In this document: positions 11,013 to 32,031 of the stretch, one piece after another
Layout of the letters: each line of letters begins with the position of its first letter
How positions within the stretch are numbered: the first letter of the stretch is position 1
Assembly (NCBI GenBank): GCA_025923995.1
Contig: JAICEW010000028.1
Span: forward strand, 1-33,000
DNA length: 33,000 nucleotides
Reading direction: 5' to 3'
DNA from: Vicinamibacteria bacterium
Lineage (GTDB): Bacteria > Acidobacteriota > Vicinamibacteria > Fen-336
Program-made: the position numbers and the translations under genes
Notes under the pieces: model-generated
Told to the model about the DNA's origin: nothing
Databases searched by the model: none
What the model saw: only the letters and a program-made list of their open reading frames with translations

Positions 11013-11051
11013 GACGTAGACACTCTACGTCTATGGACGTAGAGTGTCTAC
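11013..11051. promoter_or_regulatory. Multi-half-site palindromic operator before padR
   Basis: GTAGACACTCTACGTC (11016-11031), four bases, then its exact reverse complement (11036-11051) form a 36-bp perfect inverted repeat ending 4 nt before the padR ATG. The unit GACGTAGA occurs at 11013-11020 and 11036-11043, and its complement TCTACGTC at 11024-11031. Several overlapping dyads with 3- and 4-bp spacers therefore exist. PadR proteins bind such dyads to repress their own operons, so autoregulation of padR and the permease is the likely role. Confidence 0.75.
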
Positions 11052-11055
11052 TACC

Positions 11056-11412
11056 ATGGCCCTCACCCCCGACGACGGCCGCCTCGAGCTGCTCCAGGGC
11101 ACGCTCGACATGCTCATCCTCCGCACCTTGCAGTGGGGCCCCCGGCACGGCCACGGCATCGGCCAGGCCATCCGCGCCCAGTCGGACGAGCTGCTGAGGG
11201 TCGAGACCGGCTCGCTCTATCCCGCGCTCCACCGCCTGGTGAAGCGCGGATGGCTGAAGGCGGAGTGGGGGATCAGCGAGGCGAACCAGCGGGCCAGGTA
11301 CTACCGCCTCACCGCGACGGGCAAGGCGCAGCTCGCGCGCGAGCGCGACCGCTGGTCGCAGCTCGTGCGCGCGATCGGGCTGGTCTTGAACCCGGAGCCG
11401 GGCAAGGAGTAG
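11056..11412 (+). CDS. PadR-family transcriptional regulator
   Basis: A 118-residue winged-helix protein of the PadR s1 type. It carries LLQGTLDMLILRTLQWGPRHGHGI, the recognition segment ETGSLYPALHRLVKRGWLKAEW, the wing YYRLTATGKAQL and a short C-terminal dimer helix. The ATG at 11056 lies directly behind the palindrome without a Shine-Dalgarno. A GTG at 11044 inside the palindrome is the alternative start, and a leaderless transcript is possible. Only 3 nt separate its stop from the ADOP permease, the standard padR-ADOP arrangement of acidobacteria. It probably represses this operon until a ligand, often a small aromatic or a drug, is bound; the ligand is unknown. Confidence 0.92.
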   Translation: MALTPDDGRLELLQGTLDMLILRTLQWGPRHGHGIGQAIRAQSDELLRVETGSLYPALHRLVKRGWLKAEWGISEANQRARYYRLTATGKAQLARERDRWSQLVRAIGLVLNPEPGKE

Positions 11413-11415
11413 CGC

Positions 11416-14037
11416 ATGAAGCCCCCCGACTGGGACGAGCTCGACGACGAGATCCGCGGCCACCTGGCCCTCAGCATCCGGGAGCGGATCGAGCGCGGCG
11501 AGGCTCCCGAGGCGGCACGCCTGGCCGCGCTCAAGGAGTTCGGCAACGTGGACCTGACGCGCGACTCCATCCGCGGCGTCTGGCGGCCCCGCTGGCTCGA
11601 CGCGGCGGAGGCGCTCGTCCGCGACATCCGTTTCGCCTTCCGCTCGCTGCTGCGCGCGAAGGGCCTGACGGCCACCGTGGTGGTGACGCTCGCCCTGGGC
11701 ATCGGGGCCAACGCGGCCATCTTCAGCGTCGTCCGCAGCGTGCTCCTGCGTCCCCTGGTCAACCGGGACGCGGACCGGCTCATCTACATCCGCCAGACGG
11801 CGCTGGGCATCGGAACCGAGAACCTCACCTTCTCGATGCCGGAGGTCCGGGACCTCACCTCGCGCGCCACCACCATCGCGTCGTTCGGCGACTTCTCGAC
11901 CGTCAACTTCACGATGGTCGGCGTGGGGCCGGAGCCCCGCGTCGTGACCGCAGGCGTCGTCAACGGTTCGTTCTTCGAGGTGATGGGGCTTCGCCCGGCC
12001 GTCGGCCGCCTGCTCCACGCCGGCGACGACGGGTCCAGGGCGGCGCCGGTTGCGGTCCTGACCCACCGCTTCTGGACGAGCACGTTCGGGGGCGATCCGG
12101 CGGTGGTGGGGCGGCCCCTTCGCCTGGGGCCGGGCACCGCGACCGTGGTCGGCGTGCTCGAGCCGTCCATCCCCTATCCGGCCGAGACCCAGATCATCGC
12201 CAACGTCGTCACCAGCCCCCACCATCTCGGCGCGACGATGGTCGACGACCGCACCCACCGCATGACGGAGCTGTTCGGGCGGCTGGCTCCGGGCGCCACG
12301 GTGGAGGCGGCGCGCGCCGAGCTCGACTCCCTGCACGCCTCGATGACGAGCGCGCACCCCAAGGCGTACTCCCAGCGTGCGCAGGTCCGGCTGCACGTCG
12401 CCACGCTCCCCGAGCAGATCGCCTCGCCGGCGCGGACGATCCTCCTGCTGCTGCTGGCGGCGGCCGCGGTGGTGTTCGTGATCGCGTGCTCGAACGTCGC
12501 CAACCTCATCCTGGGTCGGTCGGTCCGCCGCGAAGGGGAGCTGGCGCTGCGGGCCGCGCTGGGCGCGGGACCGGGAGCGCTGCGGCGCACGCTCCTGGCC
12601 GAGAGCCTGCTCCTGTGCGGCGCGGGGGCCGCGCTGGGGCTGGTGCTGGCGCAGCCCCTGGTCGCGATGGCCGGCCGCTACGCGGCGCGCTTCTCCGTCC
12701 GCGCGCTCGAAGCCACGGTGGACGCGAGCGTGCTGTGGGTGGGGGTGGGGCTGGCGGCGGTCGCGGCCGTGCTCCTCGCGTACGTCCCGCGGCTCCCGTC
12801 ACCCGACCGCCCCGGCGGGCTGGGGCTGGCCGCCGGCAGCGCGCGCATGACGCCGGGCACCAGCCGCCGCCTGCGGATCTTCGCCACCACCCAGATCGCG
12901 TGCTCGTTCGTGCTGCTGGCGGGCGCGTTCATGCTCGTGTCCGTCCTCACGGCCCTGCAGACCGCGCGCACGGGCTACGAGATGCGCAAGGTCCTGGCCA
13001 TCGACGTCCCGCCTCCGGACCCCAACAGCGGAGACCGGATGCACGCCTACTTCGAGGAGGCGACGCGGCGGATCGGGGCGCTGCCGGGAGTCGAGAACGT
13101 CGCCGTCGGGATGATCGTGCCCTGGCGGGACCACAACCCCGGCCTGAAGTTCCGCTTCGCGTTCGAGGGCTACCAGCCCGCCGACGGCGAAGAGGACCCG
13201 ACCTGCCGCTTCCGCCCGGTGTCTCCCCGCTTCTTCGCGACGCTCGGAGTCCCGCTGCTCGCGGGCCGGGAGTTCACGGACCAGGACCGCGCCGACACCG
13301 AGCGCGTGGCGATCGTCAGCCAGAGCGTGGCGCGGCGTGTCTTCTCGAACGGCGAGGCGCTCGGCCGGCACGTGGGCTGGACCAGCCGCGGGCTGAAGGG
13401 CGCCCACCGCATCGTCGGCGTGGTGGCGGACGTGGACGACGAGAACGTCGTGCAGGAGCCGACGCTGACCGTGTACTACCCGCTGCGGCAGATGGGCCTG
13501 GCCAGCCGCCTGTTCGTTCGCGCCGAAGGCGATCCCTACGCGCTCGTCCCCTCCGTGACCCGCACGCTCCGCGAGATGTCCGCCGAGCAGGCGGTCGAGC
13601 GCCCCCGGACGCTCGAGGACGTGCGCGCGCAGGTGCTGACGCCGGAGCGGCTGAACGCGTTCGTGTTCTCGGCGTTCGGGGGCATCGCGCTGCTGATCGC
13701 GGTCGTGGGCGTCGCGGGCGTGCTGGCCTTCTCGGTGAGCACGCGCACGCGCGAGTTCGGCATCCGCCTGGCGATCGGATCGACGCCCGCGCAGCTGCTC
13801 ACGGGAATCCTGAAGGAAGGCGTGGTGATCGTCACGGCCGGCATCACGGCCGGCGCCGTGCTCGGCCTCGCGTTGGCTCGCGTGGCCTCCGCCTCCCTGG
13901 GAACCGCACGCATGCCGGGACTCCTGCCCGCGGTCGGCGCCGCCACCGTCCTGGCCGCGGCGGCGGTGATCGCTTCGCTGGTGCCGGCCGCGCGCGCCTC
14001 ACGTGTCGACGTGCTGCAGGCCCTCAGGTCCGAATAG
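11416..14037 (+). CDS. ADOP-type permease (FtsX/MacB-like)
   Basis: An 873-residue protein. Residues 1-70 are a soluble helical prefix (DELDDEIRGHLALSIRERIE onward) of the kind seen on PadR-linked permeases. Then come a first helix (about 87-107, VVVTLALGIGANAAIFSVV), a MacB-like periplasmic core, three helices of an FtsX domain (about 340-470), and a second copy of core plus FtsX domain (to 873, ending ARASRVDVLQALRSE). This internal duplication is the mark of the ADOP family. No ABC ATPase gene is adjacent, so it is either orphan or uses a distant ATPase. Substrates of the family are poorly known; export of lipids, peptides or drugs is assumed from MacB. It is co-transcribed with padR. Confidence 0.9.
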   Translation: MKPPDWDELDDEIRGHLALSIRERIERGEAPEAARLAALKEFGNVDLTRDSIRGVWRPRWLDAAEALVRDIRFAFRSLLRAKGLTATVVVTLALGIGANAAIFSVVRSVLLRPLVNRDADRLIYIRQTALGIGTENLTFSMPEVRDLTSRATTIASFGDFSTVNFTMVGVGPEPRVVTAGVVNGSFFEVMGLRPAVGRLLHAGDDGSRAAPVAVLTHRFWTSTFGGDPAVVGRPLRLGPGTATVVGVLEPSIPYPAETQIIANVVTSPHHLGATMVDDRTHRMTELFGRLAPGATVEAARAELDSLHASMTSAHPKAYSQRAQVRLHVATLPEQIASPARTILLLLLAAAAVVFVIACSNVANLILGRSVRREGELALRAALGAGPGALRRTLLAESLLLCGAGAALGLVLAQPLVAMAGRYAARFSVRALEATVDASVLWVGVGLAAVAAVLLAYVPRLPSPDRPGGLGLAAGSARMTPGTSRRLRIFATTQIACSFVLLAGAFMLVSVLTALQTARTGYEMRKVLAIDVPPPDPNSGDRMHAYFEEATRRIGALPGVENVAVGMIVPWRDHNPGLKFRFAFEGYQPADGEEDPTCRFRPVSPRFFATLGVPLLAGREFTDQDRADTERVAIVSQSVARRVFSNGEALGRHVGWTSRGLKGAHRIVGVVADVDDENVVQEPTLTVYYPLRQMGLASRLFVRAEGDPYALVPSVTRTLREMSAEQAVERPRTLEDVRAQVLTPERLNAFVFSAFGGIALLIAVVGVAGVLAFSVSTRTREFGIRLAIGSTPAQLLTGILKEGVVIVTAGITAGAVLGLALARVASASLGTARMPGLLPAVGAATVLAAAAVIASLVPAARASRVDVLQALRSE

Positions 14038-14079: not shown

Positions 14080-16449
14080 CTACTCCGCGCGCAACGCGAC
14101 CGCGGGATCGACGCGGGCGGCCCGCCGCGCCGGCAGGCAGAGCGCGGCGACCGCGACCGCGGCCAGCAGCAGGGCGCCGGCGGCGAACGTCCCGGGATCT
14201 CTGGGGCTCAGCTCGTAGAGCAGATCGCCCAGGACGCGCGTGGCGCCCCAGGCGCCGCCGAGTCCCAGGGTCACGCCCAGGCCCACCAGGACGAGCCCCT
14301 GGCGCACGACGCCCGCGACCACGCGAGCGGGGGGCGCGCCCAGCGCCAACCGCACGCCGATCTCGCGCGTGCGCAGCGCGACGTCGTAGGCGATCACGCC
14401 GTAGGTCCCCACCGCCGCCAGCGCGAGAGCCAGCAGCGCGAAGCCGGAGAGGAGCAGCATGCTGAAGCGCCGCTCGGCCACCGAGCCGGCCACCAGCTCG
14501 GACAGGGGGGCGATCCGGGCCGAGGCCAGTCGCGGGTCGACCTCGGCCAGCACGCGGCGGATCGGCTGGATCGCCGATTCCGGGGGCACTCGCGTCCGGA
14601 CCAGCGGGAACGAGAAGGGGAACGGCGTCTGGGCGAAGGGCGTGTAGATCGCGGCCTCCGCGGGATCGTCGAGGCCGCTGAAGCGGACGTCGGCCACGAC
14701 GCCGACCACCTCGCGCCACTCGGGCGACTCGCCGGGGTTCCGCAGTCGGACGTGCGCGCCGACCGCCGTCCCGGAGCCGAAGAGGCGTCGCGCGAGCGTG
14801 CGGTTGATCATCACGACCTTGGCCGCGTCCTTGGTGTCCCGCCGGTCGATGGGCCGGCCTTCGACCACCGGCGTGCCCAGCGCGCGGAAGTAGTCGTCCG
14901 TCACGGCGATGAAGTACGCGCGCTGCGCGCCGGGCTCCGCCGCGGGCCTCTCGCGCACGTCGAAGGCGGTGGCGCGCTGGGCGGTCTCGGGCGGCAACCC
15001 GGTGCCGCTGCCGGCCGCCGCAACGCCCGGCAGCGCGCGCAGACGGTCGATCACGTCCTCCAGGACGCGTGTACGGCGTTCGGGGTCGTCGTAGCGCCAG
15101 AGGCCCACGCCCAGCGCCACCAGGTCGTCCGGGACGAAGCCGGGATCGACGGTGACGAGCCGGTGGAAGCTGTGGACGAGCAGGCCAGCGCCCTCGAGCA
15201 CGACCAGCGAAAGGGCCAGCTCTCCGACCACGAGGGCGCGCCGGACGCCCCGCCCGGCGGTGCGCGTGCCCCGTGATCCGTCGCGCAGCGCATCCATGCC
15301 CCTGCGGCCGGCGGCCACGAGCAGCGGCGCCAGCCCGAACATCGACGCCGTGACCGTCGACAGGGCGGCCGCGAAGACGAGCACGGTCGCGTCGATACGC
15401 ACCAGCGCCACCCGCGGCACGCCCGCGGGAGCGAGCGTGCGCAGCACGTGGACCGCCGCGCCCGCGAGCAGGACCCCGGCGGCGCCACCCAGCACGGCCA
15501 GCACGAGGCCCTCCGTGACGAGCTGGCGCGCGATGCGGGCCTCGCCCGCCCCGAGCGCGCGCCGGACCGCCATCTCGCGGCCGCGGGTCGTCGCCCGCGT
15601 CAGCACCAGGTGGCCGACGTTCGCGCACGCGATCAGCAGCGTCAGGCCGACCGCGCCCAGCAGGATCAGCAGCGGCCGCCGCACGCCGCCGAGCACGCGG
15701 TCGGCCAGCGGCTCCAGCTCGATCGAGACGCCGGCGTTCGTGTCCGGATGCTCCCTGGCCAGCGCGGCCGAGATCGCCGCCGCCTCGGCCCGCGTGGTGG
15801 CCGCGGGCACCTCCGCCTTGCGCAGGAGCACCACGCCGAAGATGCGCAGCGCCCGGTTCCGGAGCTGGTCCGGGTTCCGGTCCATCGCCGCCCCCATCGT
15901 CGACCACACCTCGAAGCGGCGGTCGGGATACTCGAACGCGGGCGGCATCACGCCCACGATCGTGTACGGCCGGTCGGCCAGCTCGATCGTGCGGCCCAGG
16001 ACGTCGGGCCGGCCGGCGTAGCGGCGCAGCCAGAGCGAGTGCGCGATCACGGCCAGCGTCTGTCCGTCCTCGTCCGGCCGGAACGTGCGCCCCAGCGCGG
16101 CCCCGCCGAGCAGGGGGAAGAAGCGCCTGGAGACGACCGCGCCCAGGACGGGCTCGGCATCCGCGCCGAACCGCACGTCGTAGCGGTTCGACGCCCAGCA
16201 GGCCGCGTCCTCGAGCGAGAGGCTGCGCGCCCGCAGGTCGTCGAAGTCCGGGATGGAGGTGCGCCCGACCATCAGGCGGTCGGCCGCCGGGTAGGGCAGG
16301 GCGCGCAGCAGGATCCCGTGGACCATGGTGAACAGCGCGACGTTGGCGCCGATGCCCAGGGCCAGCGTGGCCACGGCCACGAGGGCGAACGAGGGGCTGC
16401 CGCGGAGGGTCCGCAGCGCGAAGCGCAGGTCCTGCCAGAGGGTGTCCAT
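14080..16449 (-). CDS. ADOP-type permease (FtsX/MacB-like), second copy
   Basis: A 789-residue protein starting at the ATG at 16449 (MDTLWQDLRFALRTL). The open frame runs further upstream, but that part is antisense to the neighbouring gene's end and is not family-like. It has a first helix (SFALVAVATLALGIGANVALF), a MacB-type periplasmic core, an FtsX domain with NVGHLVLTRATTRGREMAVR, a second core, and a final FtsX domain (VIAYDVALRTREIGVRLALG, then ending RRAARVDPAVALRAE). It lacks the soluble prefix of the padR-linked copy and has no PadR gene beside it. Instead it follows the ASK-like gene by 41 nt in the same direction. It converges on the first ADOP gene with only 42 nt between stops. 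Confidence 0.9.
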   Translation of the reverse strand: MDTLWQDLRFALRTLRGSPSFALVAVATLALGIGANVALFTMVHGILLRALPYPAADRLMVGRTSIPDFDDLRARSLSLEDAACWASNRYDVRFGADAEPVLGAVVSRRFFPLLGGAALGRTFRPDEDGQTLAVIAHSLWLRRYAGRPDVLGRTIELADRPYTIVGVMPPAFEYPDRRFEVWSTMGAAMDRNPDQLRNRALRIFGVVLLRKAEVPAATTRAEAAAISAALAREHPDTNAGVSIELEPLADRVLGGVRRPLLILLGAVGLTLLIACANVGHLVLTRATTRGREMAVRRALGAGEARIARQLVTEGLVLAVLGGAAGVLLAGAAVHVLRTLAPAGVPRVALVRIDATVLVFAAALSTVTASMFGLAPLLVAAGRRGMDALRDGSRGTRTAGRGVRRALVVGELALSLVVLEGAGLLVHSFHRLVTVDPGFVPDDLVALGVGLWRYDDPERRTRVLEDVIDRLRALPGVAAAGSGTGLPPETAQRATAFDVRERPAAEPGAQRAYFIAVTDDYFRALGTPVVEGRPIDRRDTKDAAKVVMINRTLARRLFGSGTAVGAHVRLRNPGESPEWREVVGVVADVRFSGLDDPAEAAIYTPFAQTPFPFSFPLVRTRVPPESAIQPIRRVLAEVDPRLASARIAPLSELVAGSVAERRFSMLLLSGFALLALALAAVGTYGVIAYDVALRTREIGVRLALGAPPARVVAGVVRQGLVLVGLGVTLGLGGAWGATRVLGDLLYELSPRDPGTFAAGALLLAAVAVAALCLPARRAARVDPAVALRAE

Positions 16450-16490
16450 GGCCACCGCCTGGTGATGAGACGGCCGCAGGGGCGAAGTGG

Positions 16491-17816
16491 TTACGGCCTG
16501 TTGCGGCTCGCCTCGACCAGCGCCTCCTCGAGACCGCCTGCCCAGGCGACCCCATCGCCCCGCCTCTCGCGCGCCTCGCGAATGAGGCGCAGGTTGCGCG
16601 CGGTCGTCTCCGGCTCCCACCCCTCGCGCACGTTCGCGAGCGCGTCGGCGAGGGCGAGCACGGCCGCCTCCTCATCCTTCCCCAGCACCGCCAGCTCCAG
16701 GCGCGCGGCGTGATCCCAGAAGTCGGGCCTGCCCGCCGCGATGCGGCGCTCGATCGCGTAGCGAACGACCGGGAGCAGCGCCTCCCGGCGGGGATCGGGC
16801 GGCTCCTTGACCGCCATCAACGTCACGGCGTTGACGCCGGGATAGGCGTCGCGCGGGTCCGCCTGGAAGCCCTGGAGGCAGGCGCCGATCGCCTTGTCGA
16901 GCAGACCGCGCGCGAGCAGGGACTGCCCGGCCCTGGCGGCCGCCTCCCAACGGTCCTTGTAGACGCGGCCGAGGATGCCGTAGGTCTCGCTGCTGGGCCC
17001 GCGCTCGTCGATGAGCGCGGTCAGGACCCGCTCGGCCTCGTCCCCGCGGCCGTCGCGGTTGAGCGCGAGGCCGAGCTGCTCGCGCACCATCACGGTGGCG
17101 GCCAGCGGCGGCGCCATGTGTTCGACGAGCGCGATCATGTCCTTCCAGGCCTTGACCGCCCGATAGGACAGGAAGAGGTCGACGACGACGCCGGAATCGG
17201 CCGTGGCCACGTCCTGGAGGGCGGCCTCGACCGCACGAACGGCCTCCGCGCCCTGCTTCCGGGCCGCCGCGAGCTGCTCCTTGACCTGATGCGAGTACCG
17301 AACGCGGTCGCGGAAGACGTCCGCCCTGAGGCCCTGCACGTCCGGGAAGCCGTCGACCAGCTGGAAGAGCGGGCTGTCCTTGGCACCCGCGCGCGCCTCC
17401 TGGAGGCGGCGCGCGAGCGCGCTCCGGACCGCGGCGTCCGGGGCTCCGTCGGGAGTGAGCCGGTAGGGCAGCCCTCGCAGCGGCGCCACGTCGAACGGGA
17501 GCTGTCCCATCCCTTCGGCGAACACCAGCACGGTGCTCCAGGGCCGGACGGCGTGTCGCACGCCCAGCTCGTAGAACACGTTCGCGTTGGCCGTGGTGAG
17601 ATCGGCCACGGCGTACTCGCACAGGATCAGCCGCTCGAACATCGGCGTGTGGATGACGCCGCCGGTCTGCTCCTCGTCCGCACGGATCGGCTCCAGGCGG
17701 GCATCGGAGATGGCCGGTGCGATCAGGTCCCGATAGACGGCGTCGAAGTCGATCAGCAGGCCGTTCGCGGCGGTCTTTCGCCCGAAGGGCATCAAGACGA
17801 AACAGAGTGGGTGCAG
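16491..17816 (-). CDS. ASK-like DRHyd/TPR protein (DUF4071), apparent CTG start
   Basis: A 441-residue protein. The N-terminal about 130 residues form a nucleoside-deoxyribosyltransferase/TIR-like domain: HPLCFVLMPFGRK, then FERLILCEYAVADLTTANAN and VFYELGVRHAVRPW, whose D-T-N-N-YELG motif matches the catalytic loop of deoxyribosyltransferases. The rest is helical and TPR-like, as in the 'MAP3K TRAFs-binding' family (DUF4071), which also forms the N-terminal half of animal ASK kinases. The kinase itself is absent. The family start CFVLMPFG lies upstream of the ATG at 17792. Reading on upstream gives CTG CAC CCA CTC TGT behind GGGAGG with 5 nt, so the CTG at 17816 is proposed. Aravind and colleagues have linked this domain pair to biological-conflict systems. 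The gene is probably co-transcribed with the ADOP permease. Confidence 0.82.
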   Translation of the reverse strand: MHPLCFVLMPFGRKTAANGLLIDFDAVYRDLIAPAISDARLEPIRADEEQTGGVIHTPMFERLILCEYAVADLTTANANVFYELGVRHAVRPWSTVLVFAEGMGQLPFDVAPLRGLPYRLTPDGAPDAAVRSALARRLQEARAGAKDSPLFQLVDGFPDVQGLRADVFRDRVRYSHQVKEQLAAARKQGAEAVRAVEAALQDVATADSGVVVDLFLSYRAVKAWKDMIALVEHMAPPLAATVMVREQLGLALNRDGRGDEAERVLTALIDERGPSSETYGILGRVYKDRWEAAARAGQSLLARGLLDKAIGACLQGFQADPRDAYPGVNAVTLMAVKEPPDPRREALLPVVRYAIERRIAAGRPDFWDHAARLELAVLGKDEEAAVLALADALANVREGWEPETTARNLRLIREARERRGDGVAWAGGLEEALVEASRNRP

Positions 17817-18120
17817 GGCGGCCTCCCTGGGGGCGTATACCCCGCGCTCCGAAAGTCGTCAAGCCATTTCGCCCCAGGGGCCACGAGGCCCGACTCGCGG
17901 AGGGAGTTTCCCGTCCCTCGCGCGTGCATCTTCTTCAGTTGCTTCCCAACCTGCCTGCACTCGTGAAATGTGTGGCTCCACCGTCGCGCCCTGGGGTCGG
18001 CTCCCGTCCTTGCTCTCGCCCGATATCGAGCCCCCCGCGCGCCCAACGAAATGGCACACATCTTGCCCATCATCTCGTGGACCCGAGCCCGGTCCGGCTC
18101 GGTCTCGGGAGGACTCATCC
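17817..18120. other. Divergent intergenic region with a bulged hairpin
   Basis: This 304-nt stretch separates the leftward ASK-like gene from the rightward small-gene pair and must hold both promoters, though no clear -35/-10 pair is seen. A stem with arms CGCGGAGGGA (17896-17905) and TCCCTCGCG (17914-17922), one base bulged, lies near its middle. The Shine-Dalgarno GGGAGG of the ASK-like gene is at its left end and GGGAGGA of the 18121 gene at its right end. Open frames crossing it have no start signal and no family features. Confidence 0.45.
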
Positions 18121-20842: not shown

Positions 20843-22780
20843 TCACCACGATCGGGCCGCTTCGATCCGGGCCCAGACCGGCTCGATCGCCTTGCCGAAG
20901 CGCGCCTGGGGAGACGAGGGCTCGAGCCCGGCCGCGCGCTCCCGCTCGTCGACCGCGCCCTTGGCCGTCTCGAACGCGGCCGCCAGCGAGGCGGCCCCCG
21001 GCAGCGCGTCGCGGATGAACGCGGCGCCGAACTCGGTCACCACGTTGTCGTCGCCGCAGCCGAACGAGGTCCGGTCCGAGGCGGCCGACGTCACCACGAT
21101 CGTATGGTCGTCGGCCAGCTGGTCGATGAAGGCGCCGGAGTAGCAGGCGGAGATGACGATCACGCGCCAGCGGATGCCGGACGCGTCGAGCGCGTCGCGC
21201 AGCTCGGGCCCGTCCAGCCCCGACAGGTCGAGCGCCCCGTTCGAGACGGAGAGCTCCGGGTCGTCCGAGCCGTGGGACGTGAGCATGAGGAACAGCACGT
21301 CCTCGTCGGGATCCATGCGCTCGGCCATGCGCGCGAGGGCGTGGCGCAGCCCGGGCACGGTCGCCAGCGGATGCGTCTCGCGGTCACGGCCGTCGTTGAC
21401 CAGGAGCAGCGAGCGGCCGGAGGCGCGGTAGCGCTTCGCCACCACGCTTTCGGTCAGCTTGAGCTCCTCCGCGAAGACCTTCTGCTCGCCGTAGCCCGCG
21501 AAGCCCAGGAAGAACACGTCGGGCCGGCCCGGCCGGCCGGGGGCGACGCGCGCGGCGGCATCGTCGATGCGCGCCGCCTGCTCGAAGAGCAGGGTCTCGT
21601 CCGCGACGGGATCGCCGCGCTCGTCCGCGTCGTCGTACGCGTCGTACCAGAAGCTCGACTGCACCCAGGCCTTGCTGGTTCCCCAAGCGAAGAGCGCCGC
21701 GGCCAGCACCGCGGCCGTGAGCGCGCCCGGTCGCGGCCGCCCCGTCGCCACCAGCGCGCGGTGCAGGTGGATGCCGGCGACGGCGGCCAGCAGCACGTAG
21801 CAGGGACCCTGCCAGGGGGGGGAGCCCCACTCGCGGATCGACAGGCCCAGGACCAGTACGAGCGGCAGCGCGCCCACCATCGCGGCCAGCACCGACCGGA
21901 AGTGCACCTCGCGTGCGCTCGCCCGGTGCGCGGCCCACGCCACCAGCAGCAGGCCGCCCGCGTACCAGGCGACGCCGCCGGTCCCGCCCAGGTACCACTC
22001 CGCCCCTTCACCCGCCCGGTAGCGGTCGAACGCCAGCCACACGGCGAGCGCGAGGGCGGCGCAGCAGGCGATGACGGCGTCGCTCGAGGCCGCTCCGCCC
22101 TCGGGCCCGACGCGCCAGAGCAGCCGTCGAGCGAGCGCGCGCAGGAACCCGGCGGGCCGCGCGGCCTCGTCGGGCGCGGAAGTCGCCGGCTCGACGGTCG
22201 GGCGGTGGGACGCGACGTACTCGACCGGAGCGGCCGGCGCCGCGTCGCCCATCAACGCGCGGATGCGCTCGGCCAGGCCCTTCGCGTCCAGGCCCTGCGA
22301 CGCCCCGCGCAGGGGAAGGATGAAGGCGGAGATGGGATCGACCCAGAGGAACACGTGCGTGTCGGTGCGCGTCACGTCCCTCACGGCCGACCAGCGCGTC
22401 CAGGACTCACCGTGGTCCCGCACGGTGCGCACGCCCTCCGAGGTCAGCTCCATCCGGAGCCGACCCAGGAAGTACCCTTCGCTGGCCGGACGGCTGACGT
22501 CCCGGAAGAGGCGCTGGGTCAGCGTCGCGGTCATCAGGTAGGCGCCCACTCCGACGAAGAAGGGGAGCGGCTGGTGCCGTCCACTGAGGACGGACGACAG
22601 GACGACGCCGGCGAGCAGCGGAAGGACGACGGCCAGCACCGTCTTCCACGCGGGCACGCGCGCGCGGACGCGCACGGTCCAGACCGCGAGCCAGGCGGAC
22701 CAGTCCTCCTGCGTCAGCTCCCCTTCGATGACGATGGGATCGGCGGCCGGGTCCAGCTGCGGTACGTCCGGCTCGTCCAT
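20843..22780 (-). CDS. Membrane legumain-like (C13) cysteine peptidase with YcxB-like domain
   Basis: A 645-residue protein. Residues about 45-90 contain two helices, followed by a YcxB-like domain (about 100-165, SEGYFLGRLRMELTSEGVRT then ESWTRWSAVRDV). A second membrane block of about five helices covers roughly 225-360. The C-terminal part (about 405-645) is a clan CD peptidase of the C13 (legumain/GPI8) type: FLMLTSHGSDDPELS with His503 and VIVISACYSGAFIDQL with Cys546, the catalytic pair. No signal peptide is seen. An 8-nt C run on the coding strand (21815-21822) lies in the membrane block. The gene lies 15 nt after the NtrC-type regulator and 10 nt before the SGNH hydrolase, so it is part of that operon. 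The protease target is unknown. Confidence 0.82.
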   Translation of the reverse strand: MDEPDVPQLDPAADPIVIEGELTQEDWSAWLAVWTVRVRARVPAWKTVLAVVLPLLAGVVLSSVLSGRHQPLPFFVGVGAYLMTATLTQRLFRDVSRPASEGYFLGRLRMELTSEGVRTVRDHGESWTRWSAVRDVTRTDTHVFLWVDPISAFILPLRGASQGLDAKGLAERIRALMGDAAPAAPVEYVASHRPTVEPATSAPDEAARPAGFLRALARRLLWRVGPEGGAASSDAVIACCAALALAVWLAFDRYRAGEGAEWYLGGTGGVAWYAGGLLLVAWAAHRASAREVHFRSVLAAMVGALPLVLVLGLSIREWGSPPWQGPCYVLLAAVAGIHLHRALVATGRPRPGALTAAVLAAALFAWGTSKAWVQSSFWYDAYDDADERGDPVADETLLFEQAARIDDAAARVAPGRPGRPDVFFLGFAGYGEQKVFAEELKLTESVVAKRYRASGRSLLLVNDGRDRETHPLATVPGLRHALARMAERMDPDEDVLFLMLTSHGSDDPELSVSNGALDLSGLDGPELRDALDASGIRWRVIVISACYSGAFIDQLADDHTIVVTSAASDRTSFGCGDDNVVTEFGAAFIRDALPGAASLAAAFETAKGAVDERERAAGLEPSSPQARFGKAIEPVWARIEAARSW

Positions 22781-29550: not shown

Positions 29551-32031
29551 ATGGAGAACCTGGTCCGGGACCTGAGACACGGACTCCGGCAGCTGGCGCG
29601 CCGGCCGGGCTTCGCCGCCGCAGCCATCGCCTCCCTGGCGCTCGGCGTGGGCCTCAACACGACGCTGTTCAGCATCGTGAACGCGGTCCTGTTGCGGGAC
29701 ACGCCGATCGAGCGGCCCGACCGGCTGGTCGAGATCTACTCGGGGATCAGCGACGACCTGCCGCACCTCACCAGCTCGTACCCCGACTTCCTCTCGATCC
29801 GCGAGGGCGCCCCCGCCTTCGCGGACCTGGCCGCGCATGCCCTCGCGCGCGGCATCCTCTCGGGCGGCGCCGGCAAGCCCGTGCTGGTCACCGGCGAGCT
29901 GGTCACCGCCAACTACTTCCCGCTGCTGGGCGTGCGCCCGGCGCTCGGGCGCGGCTTCCTGCCCGAGGAGAACGTGGCCGAGGGCGCGAGCCCGGTGATG
30001 GTGCTGAGCCATGGGCTCTGGCAGCGGCGCTTCGGCGGCCGGCCCGACGTGCTGGGCCAGACGCTTCAGGTCTCGGGCGTCACCTACACCGTCGTCGGCG
30101 TCGCGCCGCGCGACTTCGGCGGGACCATCCCGGGCTTGACCCCCGAGTTCTGGACGCCCCTCATGATGGTCGATCGGCTCAACTTCTCCGGCATCCAGGC
30201 CAACATGGACGACCAGCCCGACGTCCCGCGCATCCGGAACCGCGGCATGCGCTGGCTCTTCGTCAAGGGCCGCCTCGCCGACGGCCGCACCCTCGACGAG
30301 GCGCGTGCGCAGGTCGAGACCCTCTACGCGCGCCTGCGCGCGGAGCACCCGAAGTCGAACGAGAAGGTCAAGCCCGCGCTGCTGCCCGCCACCAGCATCC
30401 GCTTCCATCCGATGCTGGACGGCTACGTGAAGGCGGCGAGCGCGGTGCTGCTGGCCGCGGTCGCCATGGTGCTGATGATCGCGTGCGCGAACGTCGCGAA
30501 CATGCTGCTGGCACGCGGGGCCGCGCGCCGGCGCGAGATGGCCGTCCGGGCCGCGATCGGAGCCAGCCGCTCGCGCCTGCTCCGCCAGCTGCTGAGCGAG
30601 AGCGTGGTGCTGGCGGCCGTGGGCGGCGCCGTGGGCGTGCTGATCGCGCACTGGGCCGGCCGGCTGCTCTCCTCGATCCCCACCGACGCGCTGCCGCTGC
30701 CGATGCACTTCGACTTCACGGTGGACGCCGCGGTGCTCGCGTACGCCCTGCTCGTCTCGCTGGCGACCGCGCTCCTCTTCGGCCTCGCGCCCGCCTGGGG
30801 CGCGTCGCGTCCGGACCTGGTGCCCGCGCTCAAGGCGACCGTCAGCGGCGACGGCCCGCGCCGCCGCCTCTCGCTGCGCGACGCGCTGGTGGTGGGACAG
30901 CTCGCGGTCTCGCTGGTGCTGCTGGTGGCGGGCGCGCTGCTGACGCGCGGGCTGCTGGTGGCGCGCGCGGCCGACCTCGGGTTCGACCCGCGGCCCATCT
31001 CGTCGCTGCGGTTCAACCTGCAGATGAACGGCTACGACGAGCCGCGGGCGATGGCGCTCCGCCGCCCGGTGCTGGACGCGCTGCGCGCGCTGCCGGGCGT
31101 CGAGGCCGTGGGCCTGGCCTCGCGGCTGCCGCTGGCGCCCGACATCAACATGGAGGGCGTGCGCGTGCCGGGCCACCACCAGGCCGCGGACGACGCGACG
31201 CAGATCGACGCGACCTACGTCGACGGCGCGTACTTCCAGGCGGTGGGCATCCCCATCGTGGAGGGGCGCGCCTTCACCGACGACGAGGTGGCGGCGGGGC
31301 GGAAGGTGGCGATCGTCAACCAGACGCTCGCGCGCAAGTACTGGCCGGACCGCAGCCCGGTGGGCCAGCGGATTCACCTCGGCACGCTCGACGCGCCGGC
31401 CACCGAGATCGTCGGCGTGGCGCGGGACCACAAGGTGCGCTCGGTCGGCGAAACGCCGCGATCGTACCTCCACCTGCCCATGCTGCCGGGGCGGACCATC
31501 TCGCTCGTGGTGCGCACGGCCCACCCGGCCGAGATGGCTCTGCCCATGCTGCGCGCGGCCGTGCTGAAGCTGGAGCCGGAGGTGGTGTTCACCGACGACG
31601 TCCCCGCGGCCGAGATCGCGGCCACCACGGTGGCGCCCACGCGCATCGGGGCCATGCTGCTGGGCTCGTTCGGCGTGCTGGCGCTGTTGCTCGCCTCCGT
31701 CGGCCTCTACGGGGTGATCGCGTACTCGGTCAGCCTGCGCACGCGAGAGGTGGGCGTGCGCATGGCGCTGGGCGCGAAGCCGCGCGACATCGCGCGCCTG
31801 GTGCTGAGCCAGGGAGGGCGGCTCGCGCTGGCCGGCATCGGCATCGGGGCCGCGCTGGCCGCGGGCGCGGGCAAGGTGCTGGAGTCGCTCCTCTACGGCG
31901 TGGGCGCGTTCGATCCCGCCGCCTACCTGGTCGCGGCGGCGCTGCTGCTGGCGGTCGCGGTCGCGGCGAACCTGGTGCCGGCGCTGCAGGCCGCCCGCAT
32001 CGACCCCATGCGCGTGCTGCGGGGCGAGTAG
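29551..32031 (+). CDS. ADOP-type permease (FtsX/MacB-like), third copy
   Basis: An 826-residue protein from the ATG at 29551, with GGAGG 5 nt upstream (29541-29545). A GTG at 29455 lies in the half-site block and is unlikely. It has a first helix (AAAAIASLALGVGLNTTLFSIV), a periplasmic core, an FtsX domain (MVLMIACANVANMLLARGAA, then RRREMAVRAAIG), a second core and a second FtsX domain (GVIAYSVSLRTREVGVRMAL), ending ARIDPMRVLRGE. There is no prefix domain. Like the other two copies it has no ATPase beside it. Its own regulator is not linked; control may be through the half-site array upstream. The stop is 7 nt from the stop of the convergent toxin gene. Confidence 0.92.
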   Translation: MENLVRDLRHGLRQLARRPGFAAAAIASLALGVGLNTTLFSIVNAVLLRDTPIERPDRLVEIYSGISDDLPHLTSSYPDFLSIREGAPAFADLAAHALARGILSGGAGKPVLVTGELVTANYFPLLGVRPALGRGFLPEENVAEGASPVMVLSHGLWQRRFGGRPDVLGQTLQVSGVTYTVVGVAPRDFGGTIPGLTPEFWTPLMMVDRLNFSGIQANMDDQPDVPRIRNRGMRWLFVKGRLADGRTLDEARAQVETLYARLRAEHPKSNEKVKPALLPATSIRFHPMLDGYVKAASAVLLAAVAMVLMIACANVANMLLARGAARRREMAVRAAIGASRSRLLRQLLSESVVLAAVGGAVGVLIAHWAGRLLSSIPTDALPLPMHFDFTVDAAVLAYALLVSLATALLFGLAPAWGASRPDLVPALKATVSGDGPRRRLSLRDALVVGQLAVSLVLLVAGALLTRGLLVARAADLGFDPRPISSLRFNLQMNGYDEPRAMALRRPVLDALRALPGVEAVGLASRLPLAPDINMEGVRVPGHHQAADDATQIDATYVDGAYFQAVGIPIVEGRAFTDDEVAAGRKVAIVNQTLARKYWPDRSPVGQRIHLGTLDAPATEIVGVARDHKVRSVGETPRSYLHLPMLPGRTISLVVRTAHPAEMALPMLRAAVLKLEPEVVFTDDVPAAEIAATTVAPTRIGAMLLGSFGVLALLLASVGLYGVIAYSVSLRTREVGVRMALGAKPRDIARLVLSQGGRLALAGIGIGAALAAGAGKVLESLLYGVGAFDPAAYLVAAALLLAVAVAANLVPALQAARIDPMRVLRGE

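Follow-up and report, generated by a model that had tools for sequence, protein, structure and literature searches.

In passages of a cryo-EM study of the animal stress kinase ASK1 (MAP3K5), the TBD is described as thioredoxin-like and as contacting the TPR domain (PMC10972558). The N-terminal region of ASK1 corresponds to the Pfam model PF13281 (MAP3K_TRAF_bd), and bacterial proteins that match both this model and PF20308 (TPR-S) form the family considered here; since the Pfam models name MAP3K and TPR-S, and plasmid records carry the product name 'TRAFs-binding domain-containing protein', the family is already known. The ideas on its DRHyd and TPR-S domains are said to originate, in all likelihood, in a 2015 Nucleic Acids Research paper on nucleotide-centric conflict systems. 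The title of a study of Retron-Eco1, listed among the references of PMC12548924, announces NAD+-hydrolysing filaments; we take the effector of this retron to be an NDT-like protein. TIR/NDT-like domains of DUF4062 proteins are described, in part of a further report, as NADases in anti-phage defence (PMC13174449). A literature search of incomplete coverage found no assay of a DRHyd-TPR-S protein and nothing on its architecture, although an earlier account of the link to ASK may exist; the passages of the DRHyd literature that were examined link neither ASK nor TPR-S to DRHyd. Here we analyse a member of this family from a Vicinamibacteria bacterium (phylum Acidobacteriota), encoded in a stretch of 33,000 nucleotides (contig JAICEW010000028.1, positions 1 to 33,000) that we call the window. 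We read it, with a probability of roughly 0.55, as an N-glycosidase gated by TPR-S that serves in phage-type conflict and whose substrate is probably NAD+ or a nucleotide.

The gene encodes 441 amino acids, with a DRHyd (NDT/TIR-like) domain at the N-terminus and a TPR region behind it. Its features are as follows (rmsd, root-mean-square deviation).

16491-17816, minus strand: DRHyd-TPR-S protein (PF13281 / PF20308), 441 aa, CTG start proposed; from the open frame, Pfam and alignment.
17382-17816, minus strand: DRHyd (NDT/TIR-like) domain, residues 1-145; AlphaFold2 mean pLDDT 86.8, match to DNPH1 8rps at Z 14.0, rmsd 2.5, 123 residues.
17553-17603, minus strand: active-site motif D72...N77-x-N79-x-x-Y82-E83-L84-G85-x-R87-H88, with E83 as the predicted catalytic Glu; invariant in 82/82.
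16494-17327, minus strand: helical TPR region, residues 164-441, containing TPR-S (224-334); match to ASK1 5ulm at Z 22.2, rmsd 3.0, 255 residues.
17822-17828, minus strand: AGGGAGG, Shine-Dalgarno-like, 5 nt before the CTG; by inspection of the sequence.

The original prediction had related the protein to the N-terminal half of animal ASK kinases, and this is borne out. PF13281 matches the protein with an E value of 5e-42 (144.7 bits against a cut-off of 24.1) over model positions 1-354 of 371, and PF20308 with 4.2e-26 (91.9 bits against 27.6); NCBIfam gave no match. ASK1 was found in the PDB by single-sequence phmmer (2.4e-5) and by the family profile (1.2e-17). These E values are far beyond chance. 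The profile match is one hit that runs across the DRHyd-TPR junction, from profile position 66 to 404, and so covers the DRHyd domain only from position 66 onward. ASK1 and the bacterial protein share their domain order and TPR fold, but ASK1 has a kinase and a PH domain, whereas Pfam finds no kinase domain in the bacterial protein, which ends after the TPR region and at 441 aa is too short for a PH domain.

Predicted structures agree with this assignment. The full-length AlphaFold model, made from 54 of the 82 aligned sequences (pLDDT 88.5, pTM 0.69), shows a Rossmann-like head followed by a TPR superhelix. Its top Foldseek match is ASK1 (8qgy, E 5e-11; 5ulm, 1e-6), with an rmsd of 15 over the full length that presumably reflects a differing orientation of the domains, and structural re-alignment is led by the ASK1 central region (5ulm, Z 22.2, rmsd 3.0, 255 residues). 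A model of the DRHyd domain alone (AlphaFold2, 41 of the 82 sequences) matches DNPH1 (8rps, Z 14.0), the CMP N-glycosidase MilB (12.3) and NDT (12.1), and also TIR-STING and SPARTA TIR chains (Z 11.6-12.1), so that the N-terminal domain, as modelled, has an NDT/Rcl-like Rossmannoid fold. TIR-type NADase effectors (PycTIR, TIR-STING, the TIR-APAZ of SPARTA, DUF4062) are related in fold, but no TIR model of Pfam matches the protein. ASK1 is absent among the structural matches listed for the DRHyd-only model, and a DRHyd-only profile run against the PDB does not list it at E<=10; because this profile misses ASK1, the view of the ASK1 TBD as a degenerate DRHyd domain rests on the full-length profile and on the alignment of the motif described below, and the connection to ASK1 by way of DRHyd draws in addition on the full-length Foldseek match.

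The family was sampled as 80 loci, out of 167 relatives, from a protein search of genome contigs, and the sampled relatives are 55-73% identical over almost the full length. In the resulting alignment of 82 proteins, 58 of 441 positions are invariant, and the window protein keeps all 58. These include D72, N77, N79, Y82, E83, G85, R87 and H88, and the loop that had earlier been described as intact is indeed present as D-L-T...N-x-N-x-x-Y-E-L-G, with E83 conserved throughout. E83 aligns, weakly, with the YELG Glu of Rcl/DNPH1 and a Glu in a PycTIR segment (E 0.04 and 0.09); we take the aligned Glu to be the nucleophile in DNPH1 and NDT. The likeness to the DNPH1/Rcl, MilB and NDT N-glycosidases therefore lies in the fold and in this Glu, and the predicted active site of the bacterial protein looks intact. 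In ASK1, FYHLGVR is aligned to FYELGVR of the family profile, with His where Glu stands; by this alignment of one ASK protein, ASK1 is without the catalytic Glu of the DRHyd site.

Gene neighbourhoods place the family among conflict systems. The 82 loci around the anchor genes, that is, the family members themselves, have at least 2.5 kb of downstream flank in 67 cases and at least 2.5 kb upstream in 74; neighbouring genes were called by a simple open reading frame method, and some of the calls are spurious. Using local hidden Markov models, we found that 48 of 81 relatives have a TIR or further TPR-S gene no more than 6 kb away: TIR genes in 36, TPR-S genes in 27 and both in 15. The fraction of such neighbours drops with distance: at rank 1 they make up 43 of 155 genes, at rank 5 they are 3 of 91. 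Most of those at rank 1 lie on the same strand (36/43), and the tree requires at least 20 changes in the state of the neighbour. From 157 immediate neighbours we took the 74 on the same strand with a gap of at most 150 nt and a length of at least 90 aa, excluding that of the window copy. Pfam scans of these 74 matched TIR_2 in 14, ThsB_TIR in 10, TPR-S in 10, patatin in 4 and DUF4231 in 3 (one protein may match several models), and PADLOC models of ThsB matched up to 6 neighbour members each. Relatives are thus adjoined by ThsB_TIR genes such as those of Thoeris, a comparison that covers the ThsB side only. TPR-S is rare as a background: 25 relatives' genomes hold 59 TPR-S matches, or 34 once the anchors are set aside, and 13 of the 34 are no more than 10 kb away from the anchor.

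The neighbouring TPR-S genes carry other effectors. In all 10 that were chosen from 28 found, TPR-S is joined to patatin (3), an alpha/beta hydrolase (3), trypsin (2) or CHAT (2). The window protein shares the TPR-S domain of this effector family above the Pfam cut-off, but has DRHyd in place of the patatin, hydrolase, trypsin or CHAT domain. Since TPR-S is common to proteins whose effector domains are exchanged, it would be the regulator and DRHyd one choice of effector. This TIR and TPR-S neighbourhood, which had gone unnoticed in the original prediction, carries most of the functional signal and supports, for the family, the setting in conflict or stress that had been proposed there.

Plasmid loci extend the picture. 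Agrobacterium and Rhizobium plasmids (L098 and L099) share a conserved block of TIR / QueC-like / Ogg-HhH / TIR-TGT / PfkB kinase / DRHyd-TPR-S / SLATT, the domains of which were checked on the Agrobacterium copy, and a short pAgo lies near that copy (PADLOC pAgo_I, 1.8e-200). In parts of one plasmid report a DUF4071 protein, a member of this family, is placed on an Arcobacter plasmid, our locus L100, which is Aliarcobacter pM830MA, a putative virulence plasmid that also encodes AbiEii, DUF4062 and patatin-like proteins (PMC6690266). Its gene set reads more like a defence set.

The gene is rare and patchily distributed. It is present in single copy in the host genome (6.8 Mb in 592 contigs) and, host included, in 4 of 297 genomes of the phylum Acidobacteriota at E<=1e-60, while the Pfam model finds it in 5 of 193 genomes of the class. 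The tree of 82 proteins contains 25 phylum changes among 11 named phyla, and the rows nearest to the window protein are proteobacterial, without starred support. Family members occur in 13 of 72,556 plasmid records, 10 of which are typed as conjugative. Rarity, phylum changes and plasmid carriage together are typical of a gene that moves horizontally. The family profile also reached one distant locus on a viral contig, at 20% identity. Streptococcus prophages contain a short gene (L102:3459-4238) whose start matches the DRHyd domain, situated between the repressor and the integrase-side genes; it has no Pfam match at 0.01 and is possibly a prophage-borne defence gene. The copy in one Acidobacteriota relative (L105:1444-2781) has a single in-frame TGA within its PF13281 match, which may reflect decay of the copy or an error in sequencing.

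Exchangeable effectors on TPR-S, together with the precedent of TIR/NDT-like domains as NADases, lead us to favour a gated N-glycosidase effector, with a signal-making role next. In the favoured mechanism, the DRHyd domain would act as an N-glycosidase in which E83 breaks the glycosidic bond of a nucleotide, most likely NAD+ or a (deoxy)nucleotide. Until it binds a ligand or protein derived from infection or stress, the C-terminal TPR-S region would keep the domain inactive; once activated, the enzyme would use up its substrate and halt the cell or the phage.

Several observations weigh against such an enzyme or against its role in this host. The DRHyd-only profile reaches Rcl/DNPH1 only at E 0.04-1.6. 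The position of the second catalytic acid of DNPH1 (human D80) is an invariant Met59 in the bacterial family, which also differs from DNPH1 in its added TPR region, and an invariant E61 lies two residues on; DNPH1-like chemistry is therefore doubtful, and the chemistry may be closer to that of TIR domains. The PADLOC match of the protein, to a TIR effector, is weak and partial (2.9e-6). Of the 81 relatives, 33 lack both a TIR gene and a further TPR-S gene in the flanking DNA covered, and the 33-kb window lacks them too, so the window copy would work alone or with genes elsewhere. It is a stand-alone copy in this genome, of which other contigs hold weak TPR-S and four TIR matches. The start codon, discussed below, makes expression uncertain.

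The same neighbourhoods allow a second explanation, in which the DRHyd domain makes a nucleotide messenger that other TPR-S effectors sense in trans, as ThsA senses the product of TIR proteins in Thoeris. This would fit the further TPR-S gene that 27 of 81 relatives have no more than 6 kb away, and also the lytic effector domains of the ten such genes that were examined. We nevertheless think it unlikely: those 33 relatives and the window lack a partner in the DNA covered, and the DRHyd protein has a TPR-S region of its own, which a pure synthase would not need.

We hold it rather improbable that the protein is a DNPH1- or MilB-like enzyme that cleans the nucleotide pool, or one with some other housekeeping role under stress, its location in defence islands being secondary. 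Its nearest folds, DNPH1, MilB and NDT, are what such an enzyme would have, but the patchy distribution with its 25 phylum changes, the carriage on plasmids, the adjacency to TIR and TPR-S genes and the lack of conservation at D80 all speak against housekeeping.

The start of the gene bears on whether the window copy is functional. On the minus strand the frame runs from 17858 down to its stop codon at 16491, without internal stops. There is no ATG, GTG or TTG at the conserved N-terminus; the first start codon of translation table 11 is TTG at 17795, and a start there would remove strand beta-1 of the DRHyd domain. The CTG at 17816 (17814-17816) follows AGGGAGG (17828-17822) at a distance of 5 nt and, in the 82-protein alignment, takes the place of the Met of relatives ahead of x-PLCFVLMPFG, which makes it the probable start. 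A scan for promoters and terminators at the gene found nothing, although the sigma-70-like test is weak in this GC-rich host. An acquired gene in decay, passively carried after its ATG had turned into CTG, would explain both the missing start codon and the missing promoter; the uninterrupted frame, the retention of all 58 invariant positions and the good spacing between the Shine-Dalgarno-like sequence and the CTG leave this explanation a low probability.

Downstream of the gene on the same strand, after a gap of 41 nt, lies a permease of the ADOP family (TIGR03434, E 5.7e-244; likely ATG at 16449), just as the original prediction had pointed out.

14080-16449, minus strand: duplicated permease of the ADOP family, 789 aa, next to the gene by chance in our judgement; from TIGR03434 and neighbourhood counts.

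It had been suggested there that the pair couples a nucleotide-derived signal to membrane export, and that conserved linkage with permeases, to be sought by neighbourhood analysis, would be expected of such a module. With two ADOP proteins as tblastn queries, no ADOP gene was found at any of the 81 other anchor loci. Nor was there one at L089, L090 or the plasmid loci L098-L101, or in six Acidobacteriota stretches with flanks of 0.5-8 kb (three of which repeat loci already counted). ADOP proteins are a large paralogous family in the host, with 60 matches in the genome, 31 of them above the cut-off, of which three are in the window: besides the neighbour, a second (11416-14037), together with a PadR regulator (11044-14037 in all), runs convergently to it, and a third occupies 29560-32028. 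We have therefore dropped the idea of a DRHyd-ADOP functional module, which for all its shared strand and short gap is very improbable, and the pairing is best explained as chance within a local ADOP cluster. It carries no weight for the significance of the DRHyd-TPR-S gene. Elsewhere in the window, positions 20843-22780 encode a large protein whose C-terminal part bears a Peptidase_C13 domain (6.5e-18); it also has a weak YcxB-like match at the N-terminus and a weak match to a caspase-type NCBIfam model.

The family is strongly conserved, crosses phyla and keeps a predicted active site that is absent from human ASK1. A tentative and doubtful extension of the gated N-glycosidase reading is that bacterial DRHyd-TPR-S proteins are active gated NADases or N-glycosidases of anti-phage immunity and that the N-terminus of ASK is a captured copy. 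If so, the 'thioredoxin-like' TBD of ASK1 would be a dead version of the enzyme, with Glu replaced by His, and the stress sensing of ASK would have descended from a bacterial immune effector. Should the bacterial protein prove to be a gated NADase or nucleotide hydrolase, it would provide another bacterial root for an animal stress- and death-signalling module and a simple test of the original role of the TBD-TPR unit of ASK1.

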